Shown here: in pieces, positions 15,637 to 63,592 of the stretch
Position numbering within the stretch: position 1 is the stretch's first letter
Layout: every line of letters begins with the position of its first letter
NCBI RefSeq assembly: GCF_006542395.2
Contig: NZ_CP038231.1
Span: 744,001-808,000 of the forward strand
Source of the DNA: Formicincola oecophyllae
Lineage (GTDB): Bacteria; Pseudomonadota; Alphaproteobacteria; Acetobacterales; Acetobacteraceae
Length of the DNA stretch: 64,000 nucleotides
Reading direction: 5' to 3'
Program-made: the position numbers and the translations under genes
Notes under the pieces: generated by a model
Told to the model about the DNA's origin: nothing
The model's database searches: none
What the model saw: the letters and a program-made list of their open reading frames with translations, nothing else

Positions 15637-17616
15637 GTCTCCCCCGCACACGCGGGGATGAACCTTAGCTTCATTGACTGTCTTGAAAAGATTTTTCGTC
15701 TCCCCCGCACACGCGGGGATGAACCCTCGCGCGCTATCTTGGCGGCTCGCTTGTGCACGTCTCCCCCGCACACGCGGGGATGAACCCTTCAAAGTTACCT
15801 GAACGTTTTGAGCCAGCTCGTCTCCCCCGCACACGCGGGGATGAACCTCCGCCACTATGACGGTGCCGCCGGGCTTTGGCGTCTCCCCCGCACACGCGGG
15901 GATGAACCCTTGAACGCCTGGATCACCAGTTTTGTCCCGCGGTCTCCCCCGCACACGCGGGGATGAACCCGCGGCGCTGCCTTTTTTTTAGTGAAGGGTC
16001 TAGTCTCCCCCGCACACGCGGGGATGAACCTCACTGAAATCCCTGACCTGCGCAAGCCTAAAAGTCTCCCCCGCACACGCGGGGATGAACCCGCCTCCAT
16101 CTGGATTGTCGGGTGGGGTCCGCAGTCTCCCCCGCACACGCGGGGATGAACCTTACGTCACTGAGCTTCAAAAGAATGCCCTACGGTCTCCCCCGCACAC
16201 GCGGGGATGAACCCTCAAACCCAACAACGTCATCAACCTTTACGGTGTCTCCCCCGCACACGCGGGGATGAACCTGAACCACTGTTCGAGAAAACGTTCC
16301 TGAATCGGTCTCCCCCGCACACGCGGGGATGAACCTGCAACACATTTTGAGCATTTTTGCTTAAATAAGTCTCCCCCGCACACGCGGGGATGAACCATCA
16401 GCTGTTGAATGGCTAAGCCTGATTTCTGCGTCTCCCCCGCACACGCGGGGATGAACCTGACTTTAAAAGTGACGATGAAGCCCAGGAGTTGTCTCCCCCG
16501 CACACGCGGGGATGAACCGTCACGCTGCTGCTGATGGGGCCTAAGGGTAAGGTCTCCCCCGCACACGCGGGGATGAACCTCATCGTAGAGGCCTCAGGGA
16601 AAAGGTGGCGATGTCTCCCCCGCACACGCGGGGATGAACCTGCGGCCGCCCTGGTTAACCTGCGCGATCAAGCGTCTCCCCCGCACACGCGGGGATGAAC
16701 CTGAAGCTGGGGAAGCTACACATTTCACAGCATCGTCTCCCCCGCACACGCGGGGATGAACCGACAAAAAAGGCGCGTGACGCCTGGGCAGCGGAGTCTC
16801 CCCCGCACACGCGGGGATGAACCCTCGACTGGCAGGGAGTAATCATCAAGCCCTTGGTCTCCCCCGCACACGCGGGGATGAACCTCAGGATGAATGGCAA
16901 TGCCGCATGAAAGGCATGTCTCCCCCGCACACGCGGGGATGAACCTCCCTCTGTGCGGCGCCTCATCGGCATGATTCCGTCTCCCCCGCACACGCGGGGA
17001 TGAACCTGAGAGCGTGACGTATGTTGCCGGCTTCGATATGTCTCCCCCGCACACGCGGGGATGAACCCTTTGAACGCCGGCACTCTTTAACCTGCGCCGG
17101 GTCTCCCCCGCACACGCGGGGATGAACCCATAGGCGATCGGCTGGTAGAGCCCTTCCTAGCGTCTCCCCCGCACACGCGGGGATGAACCGCATCTGCGTC
17201 CAGAAGCCTTCACCCTGGCGGTGTCTTCCCCGCACACGCGGGGATGAACCTCATTTCCCACGCCAGCGCGCAGGAAATCGCAAGTCTCCCCCGCACACGC
17301 GGGGATGAACCTGCCACCGTCCCCGGCGTGACGATGCGCCACCCGTCTCCCCCGCACACGCGGGGATGAACCTGAGCTTATACGTCTCATAAGAGATAGC
17401 GTTCGGTCTCCCCCGCACACGCGGGGATGAACCGCACGTTCTTAGTGAGGATCAGGCCATTAATGAGTCTCCCCCGCACACGCGGGGATGAACCGGAGAT
17501 TCTTTACTCCCATTTTGGTGTTACTACGTCTCCCCCGCACACGCGGGGATGAACCCTGGGTGAAGCCCGCGTGAAAGCCATGGCTGTGGTCTCCCCCGCA
17601 CACGCGGGGACAAATC
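15637..17616 (+). CRISPR. CRISPR array 1, type I-E, 33 repeats / 32 spacers
   Basis: The 28-nt repeat runs GTCTCCCCCGCACAC then GCGGGGATGAACC. It is spaced exactly 61 nt throughout, so all 32 spacers are 33 nt. The hairpin is CCCCGC-ACAC-GCGGGG and the predicted crRNA 5' handle is AUGAACC plus the first spacer base. One internal repeat (17223) has a C-to-T change. The last repeat (17589-17616) differs at three of its final seven bases, marking the leader-distal end. Repeat orientation puts the leader end next to cas2e. Spacers are all different; many read as open coding frames, as expected for phage or plasmid targets, but I cannot identify these. Confidence 0.99.
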
Positions 17617-45118: not shown

Positions 45119-45414
45119 GCTTGGCTCCTTCCTGTACAGAATTAGTCCACTTGCAGCTGCTGGCAGCTTGGACAAAGGCTGCCCCGTGCTTGTTTGATCC
45201 CAAAGGTGCGTGTTCGAACGCCTCTAGCCCTCATGAAACAGCACTGCACCATAATGGCTTTTTCCGTTAAAGCATAAAGTAAACGAACAGCATAGAATAA
45301 ACGGTTAATTATTCCTTAAGACATAATTTTTACCAGCCATTCCGGCTTGCAGGGCATGATCATGACATGAAACACCCCATGCACACCCCAGGAGAGCATA
45401 CAGAGGGCTTTGGC

Positions 45415-47331
45415 ATGACGTCACAGCAGCCCCCCTTGGCAAACAAGCCAGACCAGGCGTCATTCTGGACATCCGACAGGCCTTACCTTTGCCCACCACC
45501 TTTTAGGGCCTCCCAGCCAAAAGGCTGGTTCAGGCAAACTGCCTCTCAACCTGCACCCATTCTAAGAACTATGGTGACCCCCCTGCAGCCTTTAAGCCAT
45601 TGGCAAGGGCAAGCGGACCAAGCATTGACCACACATGTCCTGGCGTGCTTACGGGAAACCGCTGTGGGCGGGGCATTCTGGCTTGCGCCACGCAAGCCCA
45701 TGTTCCTGGAAAGCCAGTCTTCACCCCCCTTCCCTCAAACGAATGCGAAAACGGCATGGTTTCTACTTGACCCTGCTTGTCCCCGTGAGACCCTGCTTTC
45801 CTGCAAAGCGGAGCTGCTATCCACAGAACCAGATGGTCCCTCCCCCAATGACGGTGGCCTTGGTTACAAATGGCGGGCTGTCGCGGCCACGCCCAGGCTT
45901 TTTGAAGGCGCCTGCCTACCTGCCGCGTTGGCTGTGCAGAACTTGGATTCACCCAATCAGCGTGACCAAGCCGTGGCGGCTCTCGTGGCGGGGGTGCCTG
46001 TATGGTGGCTTGATGGCACTTCAGAGCAATTCAAGCCTTTGAAAGCGGCCAATGTGGTCGATTGGTTGCACCATGGCCACCTTTATCGCTCCCCTTGGAA
46101 TGGCCAGCCATGCTCACTGGATGATCACCTTCAGCAATTGGCTGAATGGGCCAGCTTGTTGCGGGGCAATCAAGATTTGTCTGTCGTGGCTGGCATCGCT
46201 TGGTGGAAACGCCAACGCATCAAGGCCTTCTTCCCCCAGGCCCCCATGATTGGCAAAAAGGCCAAAGCTGCTTTTCAACCTGGTGTCTCCCTGCTCCCTG
46301 TGCCGGTTTTGGGGCCTGGGAAAACAAATTGGCGCAAGGCGCTGCGCCTGTTGGAGCGTTCCCGCACGCCTTCCACGCCCCCTAAAGCTTGGTGGGCTGG
46401 TTGGGCAAGCCGCATCAACATTCAATGCCCTGAAAACTGTCCAACCCCAGCCCGTGTTGAGGATGGCTTCATCCGCTCACAAGGACTGGGAAGCGGCTTT
46501 GCGCCACCTTGTTCCATCATTGTGGACCGTCAAGGCATTTACTTCGACCCTTCAGGCCCCAGCGATTTAGAAGAAATGCTTGAGAACGCCCCCCTCCCGC
46601 CACAACTTCTTAAGCGGGCAGCCTTGTTGCGCCAGCGCCTCGTTGCTGAAGGCATTTCCAAATACGGTCGGACAATCGCTCAGAATGGGCTGGCGCGGCT
46701 AGGCGCAAAGCCTGCCAACAATCCCCCAAAACCCATCATCTTGGTGCCAGGCCAGGTTGGTGACGACCTTTCAGTCCTCAAGGGTGGGGGCAAAATCAAA
46801 AGCAACGCAGCTTTGCTGGAAGCGGTCAGAGCTGCCAATCCCAACAGCCGCATCATCTACCGCCCTCACCCCGATGTAACGGCAGGCCACAGGCAAGGTC
46901 ATGTGCCTGCCGCTGTACTAGCACGGTGCGTTGACGAAATCTCCTCACATTCATCCATCCTGGAAGCCATCAACCATGCTGACGAAGTTCACGTGCTGAC
47001 GTCATTGGCAGGTTTTGAAGCCCTTTTGCGCCACAAGAAGGTCGTGACGTATGGACAGCCCTTCTACAGCGGCTGGGGTTTGACGGACGACCTGGCCCCG
47101 CCCATCAGCCGCCGCAACAGGCGCCTTACCTTGGATGGCCTCGTGGCAGCCACACTTATCCTGTACCCACGCTACATTGACCCAGCCACAAATTTGCCTT
47201 GTCCCCCTGAAACATTGCTTGACCGTTTCAAGGAAGGGTTAGGGAAACCTGGATGGGTGGAGCATGTGCGCCATTGGCAAGGCAAAGCCACCATGTTCCT
47301 GCGCAAACTGCTCAAGGGGACGTCAATGTAA
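45415..47331 (+). CDS. kpsC: Capsule beta-Kdo glycosyltransferase KpsC-like
   Basis: Predicted to build the oligo-Kdo linker on phosphatidylglycerol for group 2 capsules. The protein has about 638 residues. The C-terminal half has classical KpsC blocks: RVEDGFIRSQGLGSGFAPP, IIVDRQGIYFDPSGP, IIYRPHPDV and VTYGQPFYSGWGLTDDL. The N-terminal half should be the second GT domain of the family but is more divergent. ATG 45415 follows GAGGG at 7 nt; ATG 45367 is the longer option. It heads the plus-strand capsule operon. Confidence 0.87.
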   Translation: MTSQQPPLANKPDQASFWTSDRPYLCPPPFRASQPKGWFRQTASQPAPILRTMVTPLQPLSHWQGQADQALTTHVLACLRETAVGGAFWLAPRKPMFLESQSSPPFPQTNAKTAWFLLDPACPRETLLSCKAELLSTEPDGPSPNDGGLGYKWRAVAATPRLFEGACLPAALAVQNLDSPNQRDQAVAALVAGVPVWWLDGTSEQFKPLKAANVVDWLHHGHLYRSPWNGQPCSLDDHLQQLAEWASLLRGNQDLSVVAGIAWWKRQRIKAFFPQAPMIGKKAKAAFQPGVSLLPVPVLGPGKTNWRKALRLLERSRTPSTPPKAWWAGWASRINIQCPENCPTPARVEDGFIRSQGLGSGFAPPCSIIVDRQGIYFDPSGPSDLEEMLENAPLPPQLLKRAALLRQRLVAEGISKYGRTIAQNGLARLGAKPANNPPKPIILVPGQVGDDLSVLKGGGKIKSNAALLEAVRAANPNSRIIYRPHPDVTAGHRQGHVPAAVLARCVDEISSHSSILEAINHADEVHVLTSLAGFEALLRHKKVVTYGQPFYSGWGLTDDLAPPISRRNRRLTLDGLVAATLILYPRYIDPATNLPCPPETLLDRFKEGLGKPGWVEHVRHWQGKATMFLRKLLKGTSM

Positions 47332-47498: not shown

Positions 47499-48788
47499 AT
47501 GCCCCAGGAACCTTTGACATTCAATGCACACCAAGCCCCGCCACGGCGTTTCTTGTTGTTGCAGGGGTTGCAGGGGCCGTTCTTCCAAAGCTTGGGCAGC
47601 GCCCTCCGCAAAGCGGGACATTGTGTTTGGAAGGTTAATTTCAATGGGGGGGACTGGCTGTTCTGGCGCCTGGGGGGCAACATAGAATATCGCGGTAATG
47701 AAAAACGCTGGCGCTTCCATTGCCGTCAAATCATTAAGCGCCATCATATCACAGACGTGGTGCTTTTTGGCGATTGCCGCCCCCTGCATCGCATTGCGGT
47801 CAAGCTGTGCAAGCAGATGGGGGTGCGTGTCCATGTGTTTGAGGAAGGTTACATCCGTCCAGATTGGGTGACACTCGAGAACCACGGCGTCAATGCCAAT
47901 TCCTCCTTGCCCCGCGACCCGGCGTGGTATCTCCAGGAAGCAGCCAAACTGCCACCGCGGCGTGCCCATCACAGGGTTCCATCCTCCTTCCTGCGCCGCG
48001 CCTTGGAAGGGGTCGCCTACAACACGGCCGACCTTGTCACACGCCCCCTTTATCCAGGCTGGAAGGATTACAGGCCCTGGCATCCCCTACAGGAGGGTGT
48101 GGGATGGCTCAGGCGTCTCTCACGGCGCAAGAAAGTGCAACAGCAAAGCGAAAAGGTTTTCGACCACCTGAGTGCTGGCATGCCTTACATGCTCTTCCCC
48201 CTGCAATTGGATGCCGATGCCCAAATTAGGCTCCATTCAGGCTTCACGGGCATGACACCCGCCATTGAACAGGTCATTCGTTCCTTTGCCTCCTACGCTC
48301 CCACCCACATGCATTTGGTCATCAAGGAGCACCCTCTTGATAACGGCTTGCGCAACTGGGAAAACATCATTCAAGACGTGGCGCGCCAGCATCATGTTGA
48401 AGGGCGCGTCCATTTCATGGGCATTGGCGACATCGAACGCTTGGTCACAGGCGCTGAAGGCGTCGTGACGGTCAACAGCACCGTGGGCACATTGGCATTG
48501 CATAGGGGGATCCCCGTCCATGCCATGGGACGTGCAGTCTACGCCATCAAGGATATCACCCACCAAGGGGCGTTGGACGGGTTCTGGCGCAACCCACCCA
48601 AGCCAGATCCCCAGACCTGGGCGGCTTTCAAGCGGGTGCTGATTCAACGCGCCTTGATCTCAGGGGGGTTCTTCTCAGATGAAGGCCTCCAGAAGCTTTG
48701 CCGCAGTGCCATAGCGCGCATGACGGCCCCTGAACAGATGGATGAGCCGGAACTGCTTCTGCCCCAGCCCACTGACGCGACTGACTGA
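47499..48788 (+). CDS. kpsS: Capsule beta-Kdo glycosyltransferase KpsS-like
   Basis: KpsS adds the first Kdo of the capsule linker. The 429-residue protein has FLLLQGLQGPFFQSLGSAL at the start, VFEEGYIRPDWVTLE (the acidic-rich GT signature), LFPLQLDADAQIRLHS, LVIKEHPLDN and VVTVNSTVGTLALHRGIPV. All are features of the Capsule_synth family shared by KpsS and KpsC. It is 167 nt after kpsC and overlaps the next gene as TGATG. Confidence 0.88.
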   Translation: MPQEPLTFNAHQAPPRRFLLLQGLQGPFFQSLGSALRKAGHCVWKVNFNGGDWLFWRLGGNIEYRGNEKRWRFHCRQIIKRHHITDVVLFGDCRPLHRIAVKLCKQMGVRVHVFEEGYIRPDWVTLENHGVNANSSLPRDPAWYLQEAAKLPPRRAHHRVPSSFLRRALEGVAYNTADLVTRPLYPGWKDYRPWHPLQEGVGWLRRLSRRKKVQQQSEKVFDHLSAGMPYMLFPLQLDADAQIRLHSGFTGMTPAIEQVIRSFASYAPTHMHLVIKEHPLDNGLRNWENIIQDVARQHHVEGRVHFMGIGDIERLVTGAEGVVTVNSTVGTLALHRGIPVHAMGRAVYAIKDITHQGALDGFWRNPPKPDPQTWAAFKRVLIQRALISGGFFSDEGLQKLCRSAIARMTAPEQMDEPELLLPQPTDATD

Positions 48789-54833: not shown

Positions 54834-55511
54834 CTACAGTTGATAGTAGCGATCAATGGCAGCATCGACTGTAGGGTATTCATGTAGTTTGCGGTCATGG
54901 ACGATGACACCTCTGGTGCAGTATTTGCGCATAAAATCCATATCGTGTGAAACAATCACCAAAGTGCGATTGGCACGTTTACCAAAGAGTTCCTCACGGC
55001 AACGCTCCCCAAAACGCGCATCACCCACCATGAAAACCTCATCAGTAAGGTAACAGTCAAATTCAATCGCTAAGGAAAGGGCAAACCCTAACCGAGCCTG
55101 CATGCCTGAAGAATAGGTTTTGACTGGATCGTAGAACTGGCGCCCCAACTGAGCAAAATCCTGCACATAATCCAAGGTTTCATGGTAATCAATATCATAA
55201 ACACGGCAAATAAAACGCAAATTATCATGACCTGAGAGACTGCCTTGAAAAGCGCCCCCGAAACCTAATGGCCAAGAAACGGTCATGCCACGCTTGATGG
55301 TGCCTCCTGTAGGTAGCTCAGCCCCTCCCAACAATTTGACAAATGTTGATTTGCCGGCACCGTTACGCCCCAGCAAACCCACCTTGTCACCGGGTGCGAT
55401 AGCAAGGTTCACTTTATCCAAGATAAGACGTTTCTCTTTACCGACATGATAATATTTACTAAGTTCTTCTACCTTAATGATGCCTTGATCTTCATTCATG
55501 ACTGTGTTCAC
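54834..55511 (-). CDS. kpsT: Capsule exporter ATP-binding protein KpsT-like
   Basis: ATPase of the capsule ABC transporter. The 225-residue protein has Walker A GLLGRNGAGKST, the signature region YSSGMQARLGFALSLA, Walker B YLTDEVFMVGD and the switch His in VIVSHDM. Length and the SSGM signature fit KpsT/Wzt-N type. The GTG at 55511 overlaps the kpsM stop (GTGA); ATG 55499 is an alternative. It is the last gene of the minus-strand capsule operon, more AT-rich than the plus-strand genes. Confidence 0.94.
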   Translation of the reverse strand: MNTVMNEDQGIIKVEELSKYYHVGKEKRLILDKVNLAIAPGDKVGLLGRNGAGKSTFVKLLGGAELPTGGTIKRGMTVSWPLGFGGAFQGSLSGHDNLRFICRVYDIDYHETLDYVQDFAQLGRQFYDPVKTYSSGMQARLGFALSLAIEFDCYLTDEVFMVGDARFGERCREELFGKRANRTLVIVSHDMDFMRKYCTRGVIVHDRKLHEYPTVDAAIDRYYQL

Positions 55512-56356
55512 ATTTCAATATATTTACGTGAATGCATACTTAAATACATTCCAACCATCAACATAATAGTACAGGACGCCAGCATGTAGGGCACTGAATA
55601 ATGTGGCACCACCTTTAATCCAAACACCCCCTGCCGTATCATTTCTATAGAGTCGGCCAAGGGGGATGCCTCAAGAATCCATTGATAACGTGATGGCAAC
55701 CAGTCTGTCATGATAAATGCCCCGGTCAAAGGAAGCGACAAATACATTGTGATTGACATGGCCTTTTCAAGGAATTCTGAACGCTCTGTTAAGGGCGCTA
55801 ACAGTATTGCAAAGGCAAAACAGAAATAACAAGTGAATCCTAATCCAGCTAGGACCAAACCCCAATCAACAGGCCATTCCATGTAACCCAGCATCACTGC
55901 TCCAGTCACTACCAGTACGCCTGCCAGTATGGTGCCTATTATTTCCAGAACAGCACGTGCCACAATAATGTCTAAGGGTGTCACCAATTGATGATATAGT
56001 AGTGTCGAATTTACTTCAAATGCTTTCACCGCACGCCCTGAACTGTGACGCCACATAGTCAATGGCACATAACCTGTCACTACCATGGCAGTCATTTTCA
56101 AGCCATGTTCATGAGAGGGTCTTATGGCCGTCCAAACAATGGCTACCCCAGCACAAAATAGAATGGGCTCCCCAATAACCCATAGAAAACCAATGTTCTC
56201 ACGGCCATAGCGCGTATGAATCTCACGCATGAGAAGCGCATGAATGACCCTTAACTGAGTGTTGAAAGCGCGTAAAAGCGTGGGGTTAACATGTCGGGCC
56301 GCACTGCGCCTATGAAGCATATGATATGTTTCAGGCGTCACTTTACTGGAGGGCAT
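55508..56356 (-). CDS. kpsM: Capsule exporter permease KpsM-like
   Basis: ABC-2 type membrane subunit that exports the capsule chain. The 282-residue protein has the cytoplasmic amphipathic start (ALLMREIHTRYGRENIGFLW) and six membrane helices, and ends SMHSRKYIEM. ATG 56356 follows GGAG at 9 nt and lies inside the end of kpsE (14-nt overlap). A TTG six codons upstream is possible. Together with kpsT and kpsE it defines ABC-dependent rather than Wzy-dependent export. Confidence 0.93.
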   Translation of the reverse strand: MPSSKVTPETYHMLHRRSAARHVNPTLLRAFNTQLRVIHALLMREIHTRYGRENIGFLWVIGEPILFCAGVAIVWTAIRPSHEHGLKMTAMVVTGYVPLTMWRHSSGRAVKAFEVNSTLLYHQLVTPLDIIVARAVLEIIGTILAGVLVVTGAVMLGYMEWPVDWGLVLAGLGFTCYFCFAFAILLAPLTERSEFLEKAMSITMYLSLPLTGAFIMTDWLPSRYQWILEASPLADSIEMIRQGVFGLKVVPHYSVPYMLASCTIMLMVGMYLSMHSRKYIEM

Positions 56357-58592
56357 GTTCACGTGCTCCAGCAACCAAGAGGCTACCCGTCACATACACA
56401 CCTAATGTGGTGACCAAGGTAATAATCAAGATAATGGTGTCCTTGGGATAGACGGGATAGTCTGGCAGGCTGGGCTGAGTGATTATGGTGATGTACAGCC
56501 TTTCTTTGTCAGCCTGTTGTTTGGCCATCTCTAAAGCTGCAGTCTCTGTGGATAGTTTCTTCTGAACAATCTTCTGATCAACCAGCAATTCATCATAGGC
56601 TGTGATTTTCGGAATCATTGATTTGGGATCCCGCCCCACAACATGCGCCTCAGCCTGGTTAACCTGCGCCTGCAAAGAGGCAATACGTTGCTTATAGACC
56701 TGAATGAGGGGACTGTGAGGTGAAGTGCGCATTAATTGAACCAAATCGGCCCGCAGCATGCTCAATGTCACTTCAAATGAGTAGGCTGTAGAAACCATCG
56801 GGGTGGATTGCTTCAATGGATCAATGATTTCATTGCTATGCCGGTAACGTGCCAAGTTTAACTCCACATCGTGAAGTTCCTTGCGCGTTTCATTGATCTC
56901 ACGTTGACTGGCTGCAATGAGATTCTGTCTTTGTCGCTCGTTCATGTCATTGACAAGCTTTTCCGCCCCCTTAACCAGCCATTTTGAGATCTCCTGGGCA
57001 TCATGAGGGGAGAATGCCCTCACTGTCAGATGAGAAATGCTGTCTTCCTCGTCAATCTCAGCTTTCACATGCCTTTTGTAGTATTTGTAAAAGCTCTCAA
57101 AATCCTTTCGCGTGAATATGGATGGAAAGCGCGCAAATTCATCAATGTAGGAATGGCTGAACATGTTGTGCAATTCAGGTGTCTTCAACAACATCTGTGC
57201 TGCATCACGCGACATCATGAAGTCTTCCACAGCATAGGTGTCTTCAGAGGCACCACTACTGCCCTCTATAAGAGACCCCAACCCTGCGGGCATTGATGAA
57301 GTCGATTTGCCGCGCACCAAGAAATGGGTCTCTGAAATATATTGAGGTGAGGCGAAACACCATAAATAAATAGCTACAACCGTGGTTGGGAAAATCACTA
57401 TCAGAAAAAACATCCACTGTTTAACAGTCATGTTTTCAATGTATTTCCAAATTTTCTCCATCAACCTGGAGAAGAAGCCCTTATTGGCTTCACCATAAGC
57501 CACTTGATTCATCAAACCCTCATGAGACCCCAATGAAGGAGCTTCTGTGTGACTAATATTTTGCTCTGACGCCAAATAATTTTCATACAAGGTTGCAGCT
57601 TGTGGAGGCTCATGCTGTTCAGGGGGCGCCTCTTGGGCAACCTCATGATGGTGTTCGGCCTGTGCAGGCTCATGCTGTTCAGGGGGCGCCTCTTGGGCAG
57701 CCTCATGATGGTGTTCAGCCTGCTCAGGCTCATGCTGTTCAGGGGGCGCCTCTTGGGCAGCCTCATGATGGTGTTCAGCCTGCTCAGGCTCATGCTGTTC
57801 AGGGGGCGCCTCTTGGGCAACCTCATGATGGTGTTCGGCCTGTGCAGGCTCATGCTGTTCAGGGGGCGCCTCTTGGGCAACCTCATGATGGTGTTCGGCC
57901 TGTGCAGGCTCATGCTGTTCAGGGGGCGCCTCTTGGGCAACCTCATGGTGGTGTTCAGCCTGCTCAGGCTCATGCTGTTCAGGGGGGGCCTCTTGGGCAA
58001 CCTCATGGTGGTGTTCAGCCTGCTCAGGCTCATGCTGTTCAGGGGGGGCCTCTTGGGCAACCTCATGATGGTGTTCGGCCTGTGCAGGCTCATGCTGTTC
58101 AGGGGGCGCCTCTTGGGCAACCTCATGATGGTGTTCGGCCTGTGCAGGCTCATGCTGTTCAGGGGGCGCCTCTTGGGCAGCCTCATGATGGTGTTCAGCC
58201 TGCTCAGGCTCATGCTGTTCAGGGGGCGCCTCTTGGGCAGCCTCATGATGGTGTTCAGCCTGCTCAGGCTCATGCTGTTCAGGGGGGGCCTCTTGGGCAA
58301 CCTCATGGTGGTGTTCAGCCTGCTCAGGCTCATGCTGTTCAGGGGGGGCCTCTTGGGCAACCTCATGATGGTGTTCGGCCTGTGCAGGCTCATGCTGTTC
58401 AGGGGGCGCCTCTTGGGCAACCTCATGATGGTGTTCAGCCTGCTCAGGCTCATGCTGTTCAGGGGACGCCTCTTGGGCAACCTCATGATGGTGTTCGGCC
58501 TGTGCAGGCTCATGCTGCTCCGACGGCAGATTCTGTTCAGCCTGCTGAGAAGAGTGCTGATGGTCTTCCGGCTGATCTGAATGCATGCTCAT
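56343..58592 (-). CDS. kpsE: KpsE-like polysaccharide co-polymerase with His-rich repeat tail
   Basis: Inner-membrane PCP-3-type protein that links the ABC exporter to the outer-membrane channel. The C-terminal half (about residues 385-749) is a normal KpsE: membrane helix WMFFLIVIFPTTVVAIYLWC, a periplasmic coiled region (RQRQNLIAASQREINETRKE), and a second helix TIILIITLVTTLGVYVTGSL. The N-terminal cytoplasmic part is unusual: about 15 copies of a 20-residue unit of the type EQHEPAQAEHHHEVAQEAPP (residues 25-330). Usual KpsE proteins have 350-400 residues, so this is about twice as long. ATG 58592 is the best start; GTG 58625 and ATG 58586 are alternatives. Confidence 0.88.
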   Translation of the reverse strand: MSMHSDQPEDHQHSSQQAEQNLPSEQHEPAQAEHHHEVAQEASPEQHEPEQAEHHHEVAQEAPPEQHEPAQAEHHHEVAQEAPPEQHEPEQAEHHHEVAQEAPPEQHEPEQAEHHHEAAQEAPPEQHEPEQAEHHHEAAQEAPPEQHEPAQAEHHHEVAQEAPPEQHEPAQAEHHHEVAQEAPPEQHEPEQAEHHHEVAQEAPPEQHEPEQAEHHHEVAQEAPPEQHEPAQAEHHHEVAQEAPPEQHEPAQAEHHHEVAQEAPPEQHEPEQAEHHHEAAQEAPPEQHEPEQAEHHHEAAQEAPPEQHEPAQAEHHHEVAQEAPPEQHEPPQAATLYENYLASEQNISHTEAPSLGSHEGLMNQVAYGEANKGFFSRLMEKIWKYIENMTVKQWMFFLIVIFPTTVVAIYLWCFASPQYISETHFLVRGKSTSSMPAGLGSLIEGSSGASEDTYAVEDFMMSRDAAQMLLKTPELHNMFSHSYIDEFARFPSIFTRKDFESFYKYYKRHVKAEIDEEDSISHLTVRAFSPHDAQEISKWLVKGAEKLVNDMNERQRQNLIAASQREINETRKELHDVELNLARYRHSNEIIDPLKQSTPMVSTAYSFEVTLSMLRADLVQLMRTSPHSPLIQVYKQRIASLQAQVNQAEAHVVGRDPKSMIPKITAYDELLVDQKIVQKKLSTETAALEMAKQQADKERLYITIITQPSLPDYPVYPKDTIILIITLVTTLGVYVTGSLLVAGAREHALQ
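57601..58519 (-). repeat. Tandem 60-bp repeat (about 15 copies) inside kpsE
   Basis: The period is exactly 60 bp, so the frame is kept. Copies are almost identical, with recurring variants: Ala or Glu after HEP, Val or Ala after HHHE, Pro or Ser near the end. Two-unit variant patterns recur at a distance (57661-57780 equals 58141-58260; 57961-58080 equals 58261-58380), which suggests that blocks of several units were duplicated. Each unit encodes four His, three of them adjacent. Because the period is a multiple of three, long antisense frames run through the block; they are artefacts. Confidence 0.97.
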
Positions 58593-58678
58593 GGGCAATG
58601 TTGCTCCTGCCTGTCCCGTTGCCACAACATATTATACAATTGGCAGGCCCTTGCCATGCTTGATGTTGCTTGAGCCAT

Positions 58679-59998
58679 TCACCCCACCACTCCAAGTGCC
58701 TTGTAGAAATCAACTAATTTTCCACGGTAATGCTGTGGGGAGAAAGACTTTGCCTGCACAAGGCCTTTCTTAGTCAATTCTGCGCAAAGCTCCCCGCTCC
58801 GCTCAAGTTTGCCAATCGCCGCCGCCATTTCATCGACATGATAGGGATTCACGCCCAAAACGGCTTTACCCCCTATTTCCGCCAAGGCCCCTTCACATGA
58901 CGTCATGACAGGCACACCTGCCTGCATGGCTTCAAGAACAGGCAATCCAAAGCCTTCCGCCAAGGAAGGGAAAAGGAATGCCCGCGCTCCTTCGAGGAGT
59001 GCAGCCAAGTGTCGTTCAGAAAGGTAATCCATTATTTTGATGCGTCCTGTCTCCACCCCTTGTTGGAGAAGTGCGGTCTCCCCCTGTTCTTTCCAAGCGC
59101 GGCCACACACCAAGACTAGGGGCATGGCCCCATCTGCCTTCAGGTAGGCCTCCACCATGCGCCCTATGTTCTTTTTGGGTTCCAAAGCTCCATAATAGAG
59201 AAAATACCCCTTTCTTTCCAAAGAGGGGAAAACGCTTCCCTGGAAAACTGGTTCGTGAAAGGCACCATCACCATAATTGGCCTCCTCTCGCTCAACGCTC
59301 TGCCCCAGGTTGTGCAGTTTAGGGGCTGAGGCAGGTTCAAAGTCTAGGACCGCTTTTCGGGAGGATTCTGAAACCGTCAACAAGGCATCTGCCTTCTTGC
59401 AAACCATAGCCAGCAGTTTCCGGTAATAACGTTTGTTGTCCTGGGTGGTGTGAGGCAATGTCAACGGCACAGTGTCATGAAGTGTGTAAATGTTCCGTGC
59501 GCCGTCCAAACGCATTGGAACAGGGTATGTCCAATGCATGACATCCACCCCCAAGGGGTTCTTGACTTTCAGAAAACGTCCCGTGGTCCTGAAAAAGCCG
59601 CTGGCGGCCCTATAGAGATTCGGTACATTCCAGATGCGGTCAAAAGGCGGCAGGCGATGTTCAAGCGCCCGGATATCGGTACGTTCGCCCAGCGCTATGG
59701 GGCAGGGAACATGTCCCCTTAAATGCCTTCCCGTCTCACTAAACCACGCAGGCTGTGGAAACCGCGCCTTTTGCAGGGGGATCTCCTCTGCCATGGCATT
59801 CAGGAACAATGTCTCACGCAGATCTTCTGGGTCTTTCCAGCCAATCCCAAGCCCAAACAGCAGATCGACCTGCGCTCCAAGCTCATTCAAGCGCCTTGCC
59901 AAGGTGCGCCCATAACGCGCCACACCAGTGCCATGAGGAAGGGCCATGTTAAAGCCGTCCACGCCTACGCGCACACCTTTCAAACAATTATTCTGCAT
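58679..59998 (-). CDS. Glycosyltransferase family 4-like
   Basis: A 439-residue GT-B fold enzyme. It begins with RVGVDGFNMALPHGTGVARYG, has VDVMHWTYPVPM, IYTLHDTVPLTLPHTT and LLTVSESSRKAVL in the acceptor half, and YFLYYGALEPKKNIGRMVEAY then LFPSLAEGFGLPVLEAMQAGVPVMTS in the donor half. It probably builds the capsule repeat. ATG 59998 is preferred because it sits directly before the first strand; ATG 60046 adds 16 residues. It is 86 nt upstream of kpsE in the same direction. Confidence 0.87.
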   Translation of the reverse strand: MQNNCLKGVRVGVDGFNMALPHGTGVARYGRTLARRLNELGAQVDLLFGLGIGWKDPEDLRETLFLNAMAEEIPLQKARFPQPAWFSETGRHLRGHVPCPIALGERTDIRALEHRLPPFDRIWNVPNLYRAASGFFRTTGRFLKVKNPLGVDVMHWTYPVPMRLDGARNIYTLHDTVPLTLPHTTQDNKRYYRKLLAMVCKKADALLTVSESSRKAVLDFEPASAPKLHNLGQSVEREEANYGDGAFHEPVFQGSVFPSLERKGYFLYYGALEPKKNIGRMVEAYLKADGAMPLVLVCGRAWKEQGETALLQQGVETGRIKIMDYLSERHLAALLEGARAFLFPSLAEGFGLPVLEAMQAGVPVMTSCEGALAEIGGKAVLGVNPYHVDEMAAAIGKLERSGELCAELTKKGLVQAKSFSPQHYRGKLVDFYKALGVVG

Positions 59999-60067
59999 GT
60001 CTTCAGGGCCTTTCAAGGTGGTGTCGTCACTTCCATGGTTCCACATGAACTGTTTTCAAGATTATCT

Positions 60068-61273
60068 TCATGAAGCGTGGCTGGCTCTCAAGCCGTGCAA
60101 CCATTCCAAGTAAGCTTTTTCCTGCCACCTTGAAACGTCCTGAAGCTTCAGGGCCCGCCTTCGCCCCCGCTCTGTCAGCTCAGCGCGCAATAACGGCTGG
60201 GCTTCCAACGCCACCAAGGCTTGGGTCAAGTCTGGAACAGAGTGCGCCCTCACCAAAAGCGCCCCATCACCAGCGGTTTCCGAGCAGGCATGATGGCTGC
60301 TTGTCACAACAGGTGTTCCCAAAGCCATGGCCTCCACTATGGGGTAGCCGTACCCCTCAGCCAAGCTGGGAAAAACCAAGGCGCAAGCTTCTTCAACTGC
60401 ACGCAGCAACTGCCCACGCGACAGCCAAGAATGGCGCTTCACACGTTCCGGGTGGGGATGATTGGCCCATGCCTTGAGCGCCTCAGCGGCCTTCCAACCA
60501 TCTGGACCCACCAGATGCAGGATGCGCTCTGTTCCAGAGCGGCCATGAGCTTCAATGAGTCTGGACAGGTTTTTGCGTGGCGTCATGCTGCCACAGAACA
60601 CAAATCCCCCCCCTGGAAAAGGTGAGGGGGCTTTCTTGCGGGCCTCTTCATCCGCTGCTGAAAGAGGGAAGGGAGGCTGCCAAACCTTCAGGTCCCCTTC
60701 CTGCAAACTGGGAAAAGCCGCAAGCATGTCCTTCTTGACTGCCTCACTGACCGTGACAAAGCACGTGCCGGCTTTTAGGTGGGCTTCCAGGATGCGCTGA
60801 AGCTCATTTGGCTTATGGCCAACAAGCTCCGGCTGCAACAAGGGGATCAAATCATGAACTGTCATGATGTTGGGCCCACCTGCCCAGAAAACAGGGACAG
60901 GGCATGTCCAGTGCATGAAGTCAAAAGGGTTCGCTTGGCCAGAGGAAACCTCCGTCAAGCGTCCCGTGCGCCGGAATTGCCTTATGGCATGGCTGTAAAA
61001 GCGATGTGGCACGCAGCCTTGCCCATCCATGAGCGCCTTTGCGGTCAGGCTGGCTTTACAGTGCTGAGTCCAATTCATGCCCCAGGACAGCGGGGGCCTT
61101 TCAGCCAGCCAACACGTCCCCAGGCCCAAACGCTCATTATCTGCCGCAAGCAACCTTGTGTAGGTGGCAATCCCTGTGCCGTCCTTTTGGACAAGGGGAT
61201 GATGATTGCGGCAGTCCATACCCACACGCCACTGCATTGGTAATGGTTTGGTGGAATGTGGTGCGGAAGTCAT
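60068..61273 (-). CDS. Glycosyltransferase family 4-like
   Basis: A 401-residue GT-B enzyme and a clear relative of the next gene downstream: FDFMHWTCPVPVFW, IMTVHDLIPLL, FVTVSEAVKKDML, FVFCGSMTPRKNLSRLIEAH and VFPSLAEGYGYPIVEAMALGTPVVTS correspond block by block. The pair may have arisen by duplication and may add successive residues of the same repeat. ATG 61273 lies 5 nt after the stop of the hydroxylase-like gene, suggesting one operon. Confidence 0.86.
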   Translation of the reverse strand: MTSAPHSTKPLPMQWRVGMDCRNHHPLVQKDGTGIATYTRLLAADNERLGLGTCWLAERPPLSWGMNWTQHCKASLTAKALMDGQGCVPHRFYSHAIRQFRRTGRLTEVSSGQANPFDFMHWTCPVPVFWAGGPNIMTVHDLIPLLQPELVGHKPNELQRILEAHLKAGTCFVTVSEAVKKDMLAAFPSLQEGDLKVWQPPFPLSAADEEARKKAPSPFPGGGFVFCGSMTPRKNLSRLIEAHGRSGTERILHLVGPDGWKAAEALKAWANHPHPERVKRHSWLSRGQLLRAVEEACALVFPSLAEGYGYPIVEAMALGTPVVTSSHHACSETAGDGALLVRAHSVPDLTQALVALEAQPLLRAELTERGRRRALKLQDVSRWQEKAYLEWLHGLRASHAS

Positions 61274-61278
61274 TTTCT

Positions 61279-61980
61279 TCAGGGGCTTGGTAGTCCAGAA
61301 CCTGACTGCGCCAAACGGTTTGGCGTTTGGGCAGCGCTTTTCTCCAGCTTGTGCTGGCGCTTGCGCCAACGGGTGAAATCACTGCCAAGCAGGTAATCCA
61401 TCACGGGAAAGGATATGTGGAAGTTCGTGTTCTGCTCGGCATAGTGGTGCACGGCATGGTGACGTCGCAGGAAGGCAGCCCAGCCTTTTTCCATGGGCCA
61501 ATTGTGCGTGCCATAATGCACCGCGTCATACATGAAATAACCAGAGAGAAAACCAGCGAACATCCCTTTGCCCGCTTCGCCGCCAATCCAGGCACACACA
61601 CCCGCCACACCCAGACCAAAGGGAATGCTAACCACCAAAGGCATCAAGGTGCGCAAGGGATGACGCGGCTGGACATGATGGTTGCCATGGATGATGTAAA
61701 CCATTCGTTTCAAGGCAGGGATTTCCGTCTTAAAATGAAACGGCCAACGATGGCACACATATTCAGTGACGAGCCACGCCCCCATGCCCACCAAAGCCCA
61801 TCCCAACAGAGGCAGGAAAGGCACTGTCACTAAGCAGAACGTCCAGGTGCCAACCATCATCAGCCCCCAAAACACGATCCACACCCGGAAGGACATGTAA
61901 GTCAGCCGTTCAAGCCAACGGGCCTGGAAAATCTGAACTGGTGGGGCGTGACGACTCAACTTGGGACCAAACAATGACAT
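61279..61980 (-). CDS. Fatty acid hydroxylase / sterol desaturase superfamily protein
   Basis: A 233-residue membrane diiron enzyme. Membrane helices are FRVWIVFWGLMMVGTWTFCLV, FLPLLGWALVGMGAWLV and IPFGLGVAGVCAWIG. The His-box motifs are VCHRWPFHF, IIHGNHHVQP, HYGTHNW and RRHHAVHHYAEQNTNF. It may hydroxylate a fatty acyl or lipid substrate. Acetic acid bacteria make 2-hydroxy fatty acids, but here the gene leads the minus-strand capsule operon. ATG 61980 follows AAGGA at 9 nt. Confidence 0.85.
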   Translation of the reverse strand: MSLFGPKLSRHAPPVQIFQARWLERLTYMSFRVWIVFWGLMMVGTWTFCLVTVPFLPLLGWALVGMGAWLVTEYVCHRWPFHFKTEIPALKRMVYIIHGNHHVQPRHPLRTLMPLVVSIPFGLGVAGVCAWIGGEAGKGMFAGFLSGYFMYDAVHYGTHNWPMEKGWAAFLRRHHAVHHYAEQNTNFHISFPVMDYLLGSDFTRWRKRQHKLEKSAAQTPNRLAQSGSGLPSP

Positions 61981-62365
61981 CTGCGCTCGTCCTTCCAAAT
62001 GTCCCACCCAGATTAGCAAGTTGGACCGTTGCCATGTCCTGGCATCAGAAGCTACGCCAGGAAACCTGGCACGCCACAACCATTCTGACACATTTTCAGG
62101 GATGTATTACACAGTTCCAGCTTTTGGCAACAAACATCCCAACTGCCCTGGTTAATGTCTGAATGCGGCATGACCTTGACCGAAGTGCACACCATGTCAT
62201 AACGGTATGTCCCTGCCAGTGCCTTGCCTGGCCTTTCCACTGGACAGCGGCAGTCACCCCCTTCATGGAGCATATGGTCCATTGCAGATGTCTGAACGTC
62301 CTTCTGTGCTTCTCAGCAGGCCTTGCCATGGAAAGGCTTCATTGCCCCCAATGCACGAAGCGGCG
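61981..62365. other. Divergent intergenic region of the capsule locus
   Basis: These 385 nt separate the divergent hydroxylase-like and export-lipoprotein genes and should contain promoters for both capsule transcripts. A weak TTGACC (near 62174) with CATAAC downstream is the only promoter-like pair I can point to. Short frames here show no coding features or ribosome-binding sites. Confidence 0.4.
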
Positions 62366-63592
62366 ATGAAGGGCCGTCCATTCTGGCGCAGACTGGGCAC
62401 ATTCATGCTAGGCTGCGCTTTCCTGGGCAGTGGCGCCTGCAACTGGGTTCCACAAGCTGCCCCAACACAATACATGGTCCGCCACGGAGCACGCTCCAAG
62501 CAGAACCGCGAGGGGATAAACTACAAGCTCCTTGCCATGACGCCCGACATCGCTGACATCCTCAGCGCGGAGGTGCCACCCACGCTGTCGAGCCTAGACA
62601 AGACCACCAGGCGCTATGGCCAAAATGACCACATCGGCCCTGGTGACGTCTTGGACATCACCATATTTGAACTTGGCAATGGCTTGTTTTCCAGTAGCGA
62701 CCGTGGTGTGGGAGGTGGGGGTAGTGGCGCTTCCAGCACTCCAGTGGCCACCGCACCACCGCGTATTTCAACACAAAAGCTGCCCCCCACGCAGGTTGAA
62801 GGCAATGGGACTATCATGGTGCCCTATGTGGGCACGTTGCATGTGGCTGGCATGACACCTATTCAGGTTGCTCACCTCATCCAAAACCATTTGTGGGGCA
62901 AATCACAGGACCCGCAAGTCATGGTGCGCATTGCCAATGACATTGGCAACACCGTGATCGTCTCAGGCGAAGTCAAGAAGCCAGGCCGTGTGGTGTTAAG
63001 CTTGGCAGATGAACGCCTGTCAGACCTGGTCGCCATCGCCGGCGGCGCCTCCTACCCGCCCAGTGACACAGAAATTGAACTGGTCCGTCACGGCCATGTG
63101 GGCATGACGGATCTCAGTACCCTTGAAAACAGGCCGGAAGAGGACATCCGGGCCGATCCAGGTGACCGCTTGCGTGTCATCTACCAGCCCCGCACCTACA
63201 CCGCCTTTGGCGCTGTTGGTCAAAGCCAGGCGCGCAATGAAATCAAGTTTGGCACAGCCAACCTGACTTTGGCCGGGGCCCTTGCGCGCGTTGGCGGCCC
63301 TTCGGCACAAATGGCTGACCCAGAGGCCGTTTACCTCCTGCGTTATGAAGATTCGATCGTTGCCCATAAACTGGGTCTTGAACCAAGCCGTTATGGCAAA
63401 GGTTGGCCGGTTGTCTACGAATTGAACTTGCTTGACCCAGAACAGTACTTCCTGGCCCGTCAAATCCCCATGAAAGACCATGACATCCTGCTCTTCGCCA
63501 ATGCCGCGACTGATCGCTACTACCAGATCAACCAGTTGATCGGTACCTTGCTCGGTGAGGCAAGCATGGCTGGGCTGTACGCTGTACGCTAA
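62366..63592 (+). CDS. Polysaccharide export outer-membrane lipoprotein (Wza/KpsD-like)
   Basis: Forms the outer-membrane channel for the capsule. The 408-residue protein has a lipobox-type signal (FMLGCAFLGSGAC). The Poly_export domain begins IGPGDVLDITIFELG, is interrupted by a Gly/Ser/Pro-rich loop, and continues GTIMVPYVGTLHVAGMTPIQV. SLBB-like domains follow: VIVSGEVKKPGRVVLSLADERLSDLVAIAGG and TAFGAVGQSQARNEIKFGTANLTLAGALARVGG. ATG 62366 was chosen as the start of a short basic N-region; ATG 62351 is the alternative. It is divergent from the kpsE-kpsM-kpsT operon. Confidence 0.88.
   Translation: MKGRPFWRRLGTFMLGCAFLGSGACNWVPQAAPTQYMVRHGARSKQNREGINYKLLAMTPDIADILSAEVPPTLSSLDKTTRRYGQNDHIGPGDVLDITIFELGNGLFSSSDRGVGGGGSGASSTPVATAPPRISTQKLPPTQVEGNGTIMVPYVGTLHVAGMTPIQVAHLIQNHLWGKSQDPQVMVRIANDIGNTVIVSGEVKKPGRVVLSLADERLSDLVAIAGGASYPPSDTEIELVRHGHVGMTDLSTLENRPEEDIRADPGDRLRVIYQPRTYTAFGAVGQSQARNEIKFGTANLTLAGALARVGGPSAQMADPEAVYLLRYEDSIVAHKLGLEPSRYGKGWPVVYELNLLDPEQYFLARQIPMKDHDILLFANAATDRYYQINQLIGTLLGEASMAGLYAVR

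Follow-up and report, generated by a model that had tools for sequence, protein, structure and literature searches.

Why should a protein of the capsule export machinery carry an extension as long as the protein itself, made mostly of one short repeat, and does that extension do anything? The question is raised by kpsE of Formicincola oecophyllae, which occupies positions 56343-58592 on the reverse strand of the window (the whole 64,000-nucleotide stretch of DNA that was analysed) and encodes 749 aa from its best start. We consider in turn what the protein is, how the repeat is built and read, whether other KpsEs have anything like it, and which explanation fits best.

Identity of the protein and its locus

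The C-terminal 380 residues match TIGR01010 with an E value of 9.8e-76 over positions 5-360 of the 362 in the profile; the score of 255 bits lies below the NCBI curated cut-off of 437.5 bits, a value that no genome in a 385-genome sample of the class reaches. A PDB profile match leads to the KpsE of 8TSH (E 9e-46), and the first 27 Foldseek matches are all KpsE chains of KpsMT-KpsE structures, again with 8TSH at the top (E 7e-13). No Pfam family was found on the protein, and NCBIfam gave KpsE-type models only. In the AlphaFold2 model, residues 1-367 almost all have pLDDT below 50, and a helix (362-386), TM1 (390-413) and the PCP fold follow, the PCP domain lying between two TM helices as in KpsE. 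Judged by these matches, residues 370-749 are a true KpsE; the tail is predicted to be disordered up to the helix before TM1 and, by homology, would lie on the cytoplasmic side of the membrane.

With the KpsE/BexC/CtrB family (TIGR01010; class-3 polysaccharide co-polymerases of ABC-dependent capsule export; 8TSH, PMC11041684), the protein shares the two TM helices and the PCP periplasmic domain, as well as the gene order kpsE-kpsM-kpsT and the KpsD-like and KpsC/KpsS-type partners, but its TM1 is preceded by a His/Glu repeat tail of about 370 residues. Because KpsE, KpsM and KpsT occur together with KpsD-like, KpsC-type and KpsS-like genes (Table 1), the locus is an ABC-dependent capsule locus of the conventional kps type.

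The favoured start codon of kpsE has AGGAG 11 nt upstream; TTG 58598 and GTG 58625 are alternative in-frame starts. A perfect TATAAT lies at window positions 58631-58636 (- strand), just upstream of the leader, which suggests that kpsE may own a promoter between the glycosyltransferase gene and its own start; a consensus scan found no -35 partner for this hexamer.

Table 1. Parts of the kpsE gene and capsule genes in the window
Feature	Position	Strand	Basis
Leader, non-repeated, MSMHSDQPEDHQHSSQQAEQNLPS; most likely start ATG 58592	58521..58592	-	start-site inspection and composition
Tandem array, 15 full 60-bp units	57621..58520	-	TRF and in-frame dissection
Partial 16th unit (EQHEP), grades into linker	57606..57620	-	TRF and in-frame dissection
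Linker, array to pre-membrane helix	57486..57605	-	sequence, composition
Core of KpsE (helix before TM1, TM1, PCP domain in the periplasm, TM2), stop codon included	56343..57485	-	profiles and model
KpsM-like ABC-2 permease, overlaps kpsE end	55508..56374	-	profile matches, gene context
KpsT-like ATPase, overlaps kpsM end	54834..55511	-	profile matches, gene context
GT4-type glycosyltransferase, directly upstream of kpsE	58679..60046	-	domain match
GT4-type glycosyltransferase	60068..61369	-	domain match
KpsD-like outer-membrane export protein (Poly_export and SLBB), divergent	62207..63592	+	domain matches
Capsule_synth protein, KpsC-type by position and family	45367..47331	+	domain match
KpsS-like Capsule_synth protein	47499..48788	+	domain match

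Anatomy and reading frame of the repeat array

TRF delimits one array at window positions 57606-58517, with a period of 60, 15.2 copies, 95% matches, 0% indels and a score of 1586. In-frame dissection of the reverse strand gives the unit consensus EQHEP[A/E]QAEHHHE[V/A]AQEA[P/S]P at a spacing of exactly 20 residues, with 8 of the 60 nucleotide columns variable among units. Among the 300 aa of the full units are 60 His and 83 Glu, and Lys and Arg are absent; a Glu-flanked HHH is present in every unit, and in none of the 15 does a variant replace a His. The whole N-terminal tail of 369 residues contains 66 His and 92 Glu, and no Lys, Arg or Cys. As a tandem array in frame, with a unit length that is a multiple of three, the repeat has the properties of a coding minisatellite. 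It contains an exact block repeat of 201 bp at a lag of 480 and another of 188 bp at a lag of 300, and the blocks have runs of unit types in common, units 5-6-7 recurring as 13-14-15 and units 3-4 as 8-9; the array was thus duplicated in blocks, at distances of 480 and 300 bp. The duplication within the array also speaks indirectly for a copy number that may vary from strain to strain.

The original prediction stands up well on these points. It had described about 15 near-identical 60-bp units of 20 residues, some 60 His beside many Glu, and two-unit variant patterns recurring 480 and 300 bp apart, all of which the dissection bears out, and the recent block duplication that it deduced is supported by the exact block repeats and the shared unit-type runs. 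Its assignment of the protein to KpsE agrees with the TIGR01010, 8TSH and Foldseek matches, its placement of the array in the cytoplasmic N-terminus with the position ahead of TM1 and the homology-based topology, and its statement that the repeat doubles the size of KpsE is fair, given 749 aa versus about 390-460 aa in the nearest KpsEs.

Near-identical units are easily mis-counted, and the unit count is known here from the assembly rather than from reads, so that the number of units could in principle be an assembly artefact. Against this, distinct variants stand in ordered blocks and the frame is kept throughout, and the array lies deep inside a single 1.95-Mb contig (the assembly has 3 contigs and the genome 1.96 Mb), which makes an artefact less likely and leaves room for an error in unit count; overall, we consider this explanation highly improbable.

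That the KpsE frame is open across the array is little proof of coding, because three other frames are likewise stop-free. The codon-usage score over the array, however, is 127 bits in the KpsE frame, with 63 for the next best of the six frames, and the variation is synonymous in this frame at five of the eight variable columns (26% expected, P=0.03), a bias that rests on just eight sites; in the other frames, the synonymous count shows no clear departure from expectation (P 0.15 or more). The KpsE frame also runs unbroken through leader, array and linker. It is thus supported that the array is read as protein in the KpsE frame. Overlapping genes in the other open frames (333, 356 and 326 aa) were considered and are ruled out by the codon score and the synonymous pattern.

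Translation might instead begin downstream of the array, at an in-frame ATG in the linker (MNQVAYGEA...) that lies closely behind GAGGG and constitutes a putative internal start. A functional KpsE would then have a tail of about 33 residues, within the 32-66 residues usual among its relatives, several of which likewise begin with MNQ or MDQ, and the array would be present in a long isoform only, or remain untranslated. The AGGAG-preceded start upstream of the leader, the frame that is open throughout, the H/E-rich leader, and the codon score and synonymous bias across the array all speak against this possibility, which appears improbable.

The non-repeated flanks bear on the history of the tail. 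Over their 69 residues, leader and linker lack Lys and Arg altogether (P=0.0003 given the rate in the neighbours) and contain 6 His where 2.4 are expected and 9 Glu where 3.6 are expected. Because these flanks have an array-like composition, the H/E-rich, K/R-free character of the tail seems to be older than the amplification.

Comparison with other KpsE proteins

The nearest KpsEs, those of Saccharibacter floricola, Bombella and a related Acetobacteraceae bacterium, are 52-57% identical and about 390-460 aa long from stop to stop. The Saccharibacter floricola and Bombella proteins have the core in common with that of F. oecophyllae, and the kpsE-M-T order is found in five of six loci and a divergent kpsD in four of the six. 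These loci differ in that kpsD and kpsE, where both are seen, are not separated by glycosyltransferase genes, and the tails of the nearest KpsEs, at most about 47-91 residues, are short and repeat-free, as opposed to the repeat tail of about 370 residues in F. oecophyllae. Ordinary tails are also found in several members of the family whose listed open frames exceed 780 aa.

Among 122 distinct KpsE-like ORFs, with tails measured from the first Met and hence as upper bounds, the median tail is 43 residues, and in 26 of the 122 the membrane segment is preceded by more than 150 residues. The F. oecophyllae tail is the longest of all, and its His content of 16.8% is by far the highest, the next being 9.4% in a tail of 32 residues. 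The original prediction knew of no KpsE with such a tail; this holds for the His/Glu sequence type, which is unique among the KpsEs examined, but not for long N-terminal tails as such, which have precedents. The unit was also sought in other proteins, as the original prediction had proposed, and gave no match elsewhere in its own genome, nor in 397 family genomes, 349 phylum genomes or 72,556 plasmid records, where low-complexity handling could hide degenerate relatives. A literature search for His-rich repeats together with KpsE found none in the library searched.

Most of the long tails, basic, Pro/Ala-rich and of 150-330 residues, belong to KpsEs of one alphaproteobacterial family (L104-L108, L143-L153), which we guess to be Rhodobacteraceae from its resemblance to that group. 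These proteins share with that of F. oecophyllae a Pro/Ala-rich, probably disordered N-terminal tail at the same place on the same protein; they differ in being basic, in ending in RRRRRK-like clusters and in having almost no His, and many of the long tails contain a conserved module, LTGRQLR-ARR-AQKHGL...DAV-LLR--GIDPF, with a basic cluster before TM1. Some Pro/Ala-rich tails have low-complexity repeats of their own (L157, L144). Those of L157 are degenerate (QAPGVQAPGVQAPG, PGPQKTGPQKTG, AETAAETAAETAA), so that in this protein a repeat has grown independently at the equivalent position of KpsE. In L102, KpsE is fused to an N-terminal region of about 300 residues that looks globular rather than disordered. 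Since long low-complexity tails of different sequence seem to have arisen independently in other Alphaproteobacteria, we argue that the N-terminal position of KpsE tolerates, and perhaps uses, flexible tails.

Possible functions of the tail

The best explanation, which we put forward tentatively, is that the tail is a length-adjustable flexible tether or an electrostatic brush with pH-dependent charge. The minisatellite would have expanded, via slippage or unequal recombination of blocks of one to several units, inside the cytoplasmic tail at the N-terminus of a KpsE that is ordinary in other respects, and the product, preceding TM1, would be a disordered, strongly acidic, His-rich tail of about 370 residues. 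The solved structure shows an octameric cage of KpsE chains round one KpsMT (PMC11041684), and by homology F. oecophyllae presumably also has eight KpsE chains per KpsMT. About eight tails, together contributing some 530 His and some 740 Glu, would then form a charged brush at the cytoplasmic entrance, the likely docking place of the lipid-linked polysaccharide and the synthases, and the tether or brush could hold or space cytoplasmic partners, namely KpsT, glycosyltransferases and the anionic substrate. The charge of the tail would be titratable by pH: the calculated net charge per tail is about -92 at pH 7.5, -39 at pH 5.5 and near 0 at pH 4.5. Both the brush or tether action and the pH response are what we infer for this tail, which has no relative among the sequences searched; other long KpsE tails, being basic and in some cases equipped with a conserved module, may act differently.

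Neutral or near-neutral expansion ranks close behind, as a possible if somewhat unlikely alternative, whereby slippage amplified a short stretch rich in H, E and Q within a linker under no constraint, and the result is tolerated and has no specific role. The units are near-identical and block-duplicated, the repeat is restricted to one genome among those searched, and neither the length nor the sequence of KpsE tails is fixed within the family, where both vary freely, all as such an expansion would have it; the synonymous bias in the KpsE frame, the K/R-free flanks, the fact that 15 units have kept every His and the frame, and the cost, for a genome of 1.96 Mb, of making each chain about 370 residues longer weigh against it.

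The EHHHE clusters could, moreover, bind Zn, Ni or Cu, such that the tails buffer metal or are folded or cross-linked by it and gate the exporter. Comparable His-rich stretches bind metals in other proteins, and the tail has in common with the His-rich disordered stretches of metal- and pH-responsive proteins its low complexity and its dense His and acidic residues, a likeness in composition with no sequence relation shown. The Glu-flanked HHH of every unit and the retention of all 60 His among the units fit metal binding, but no metal gene occurs among the neighbours examined around kpsE, the tail lacks Cys, metal binding does not call for the abundant Glu, Gln and Pro beyond the HHH cluster, and the protein matches no metal-binding family in Pfam or NCBIfam, so that we consider this role unlikely.

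A more elaborate proposal combines these elements into a gate on capsule export that is made of eight tails, responds to pH or metal and can be tuned in length, the repeat number being adjusted by recombination; we regard it as quite unlikely. Were it true, acidification of the cytoplasm would turn the tails from polyanionic to nearly neutral and alter the docking of the anionic substrate or the synthases.

Broader implications

The cytoplasmic tails of capsule co-polymerases are, to our knowledge, little described, and PCP-2 relatives control export through their cytoplasmic part, a tyrosine kinase. The comparison of KpsE sequences indicates that long, probably disordered tails arose on KpsE more than once, and the F. 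oecophyllae protein, from an acid-living and probably insect-associated bacterium, represents an extreme natural case that offers a handle on whether the amount or length of capsule is tuned by tails of this kind. The length of this tail may change easily, and the question is raised whether repeats in a protein of capsule export could be a quick route to surface variation.

Other features of the genome

The search for 16S rRNA gave no match in the genome, of which one contig, C2 (2.5 kb, L113), is fully masked. Contig C3 (9.4 kb, L114) has a GC content of 38.8%, as against 58.7% in the window. A CRISPR array at window positions 15637-16700 comprises at least 17 copies of a type I-E-like repeat (GTCTCCCCCGCACACGCGGGGATGAACC) at an exact spacing of 61 bp.
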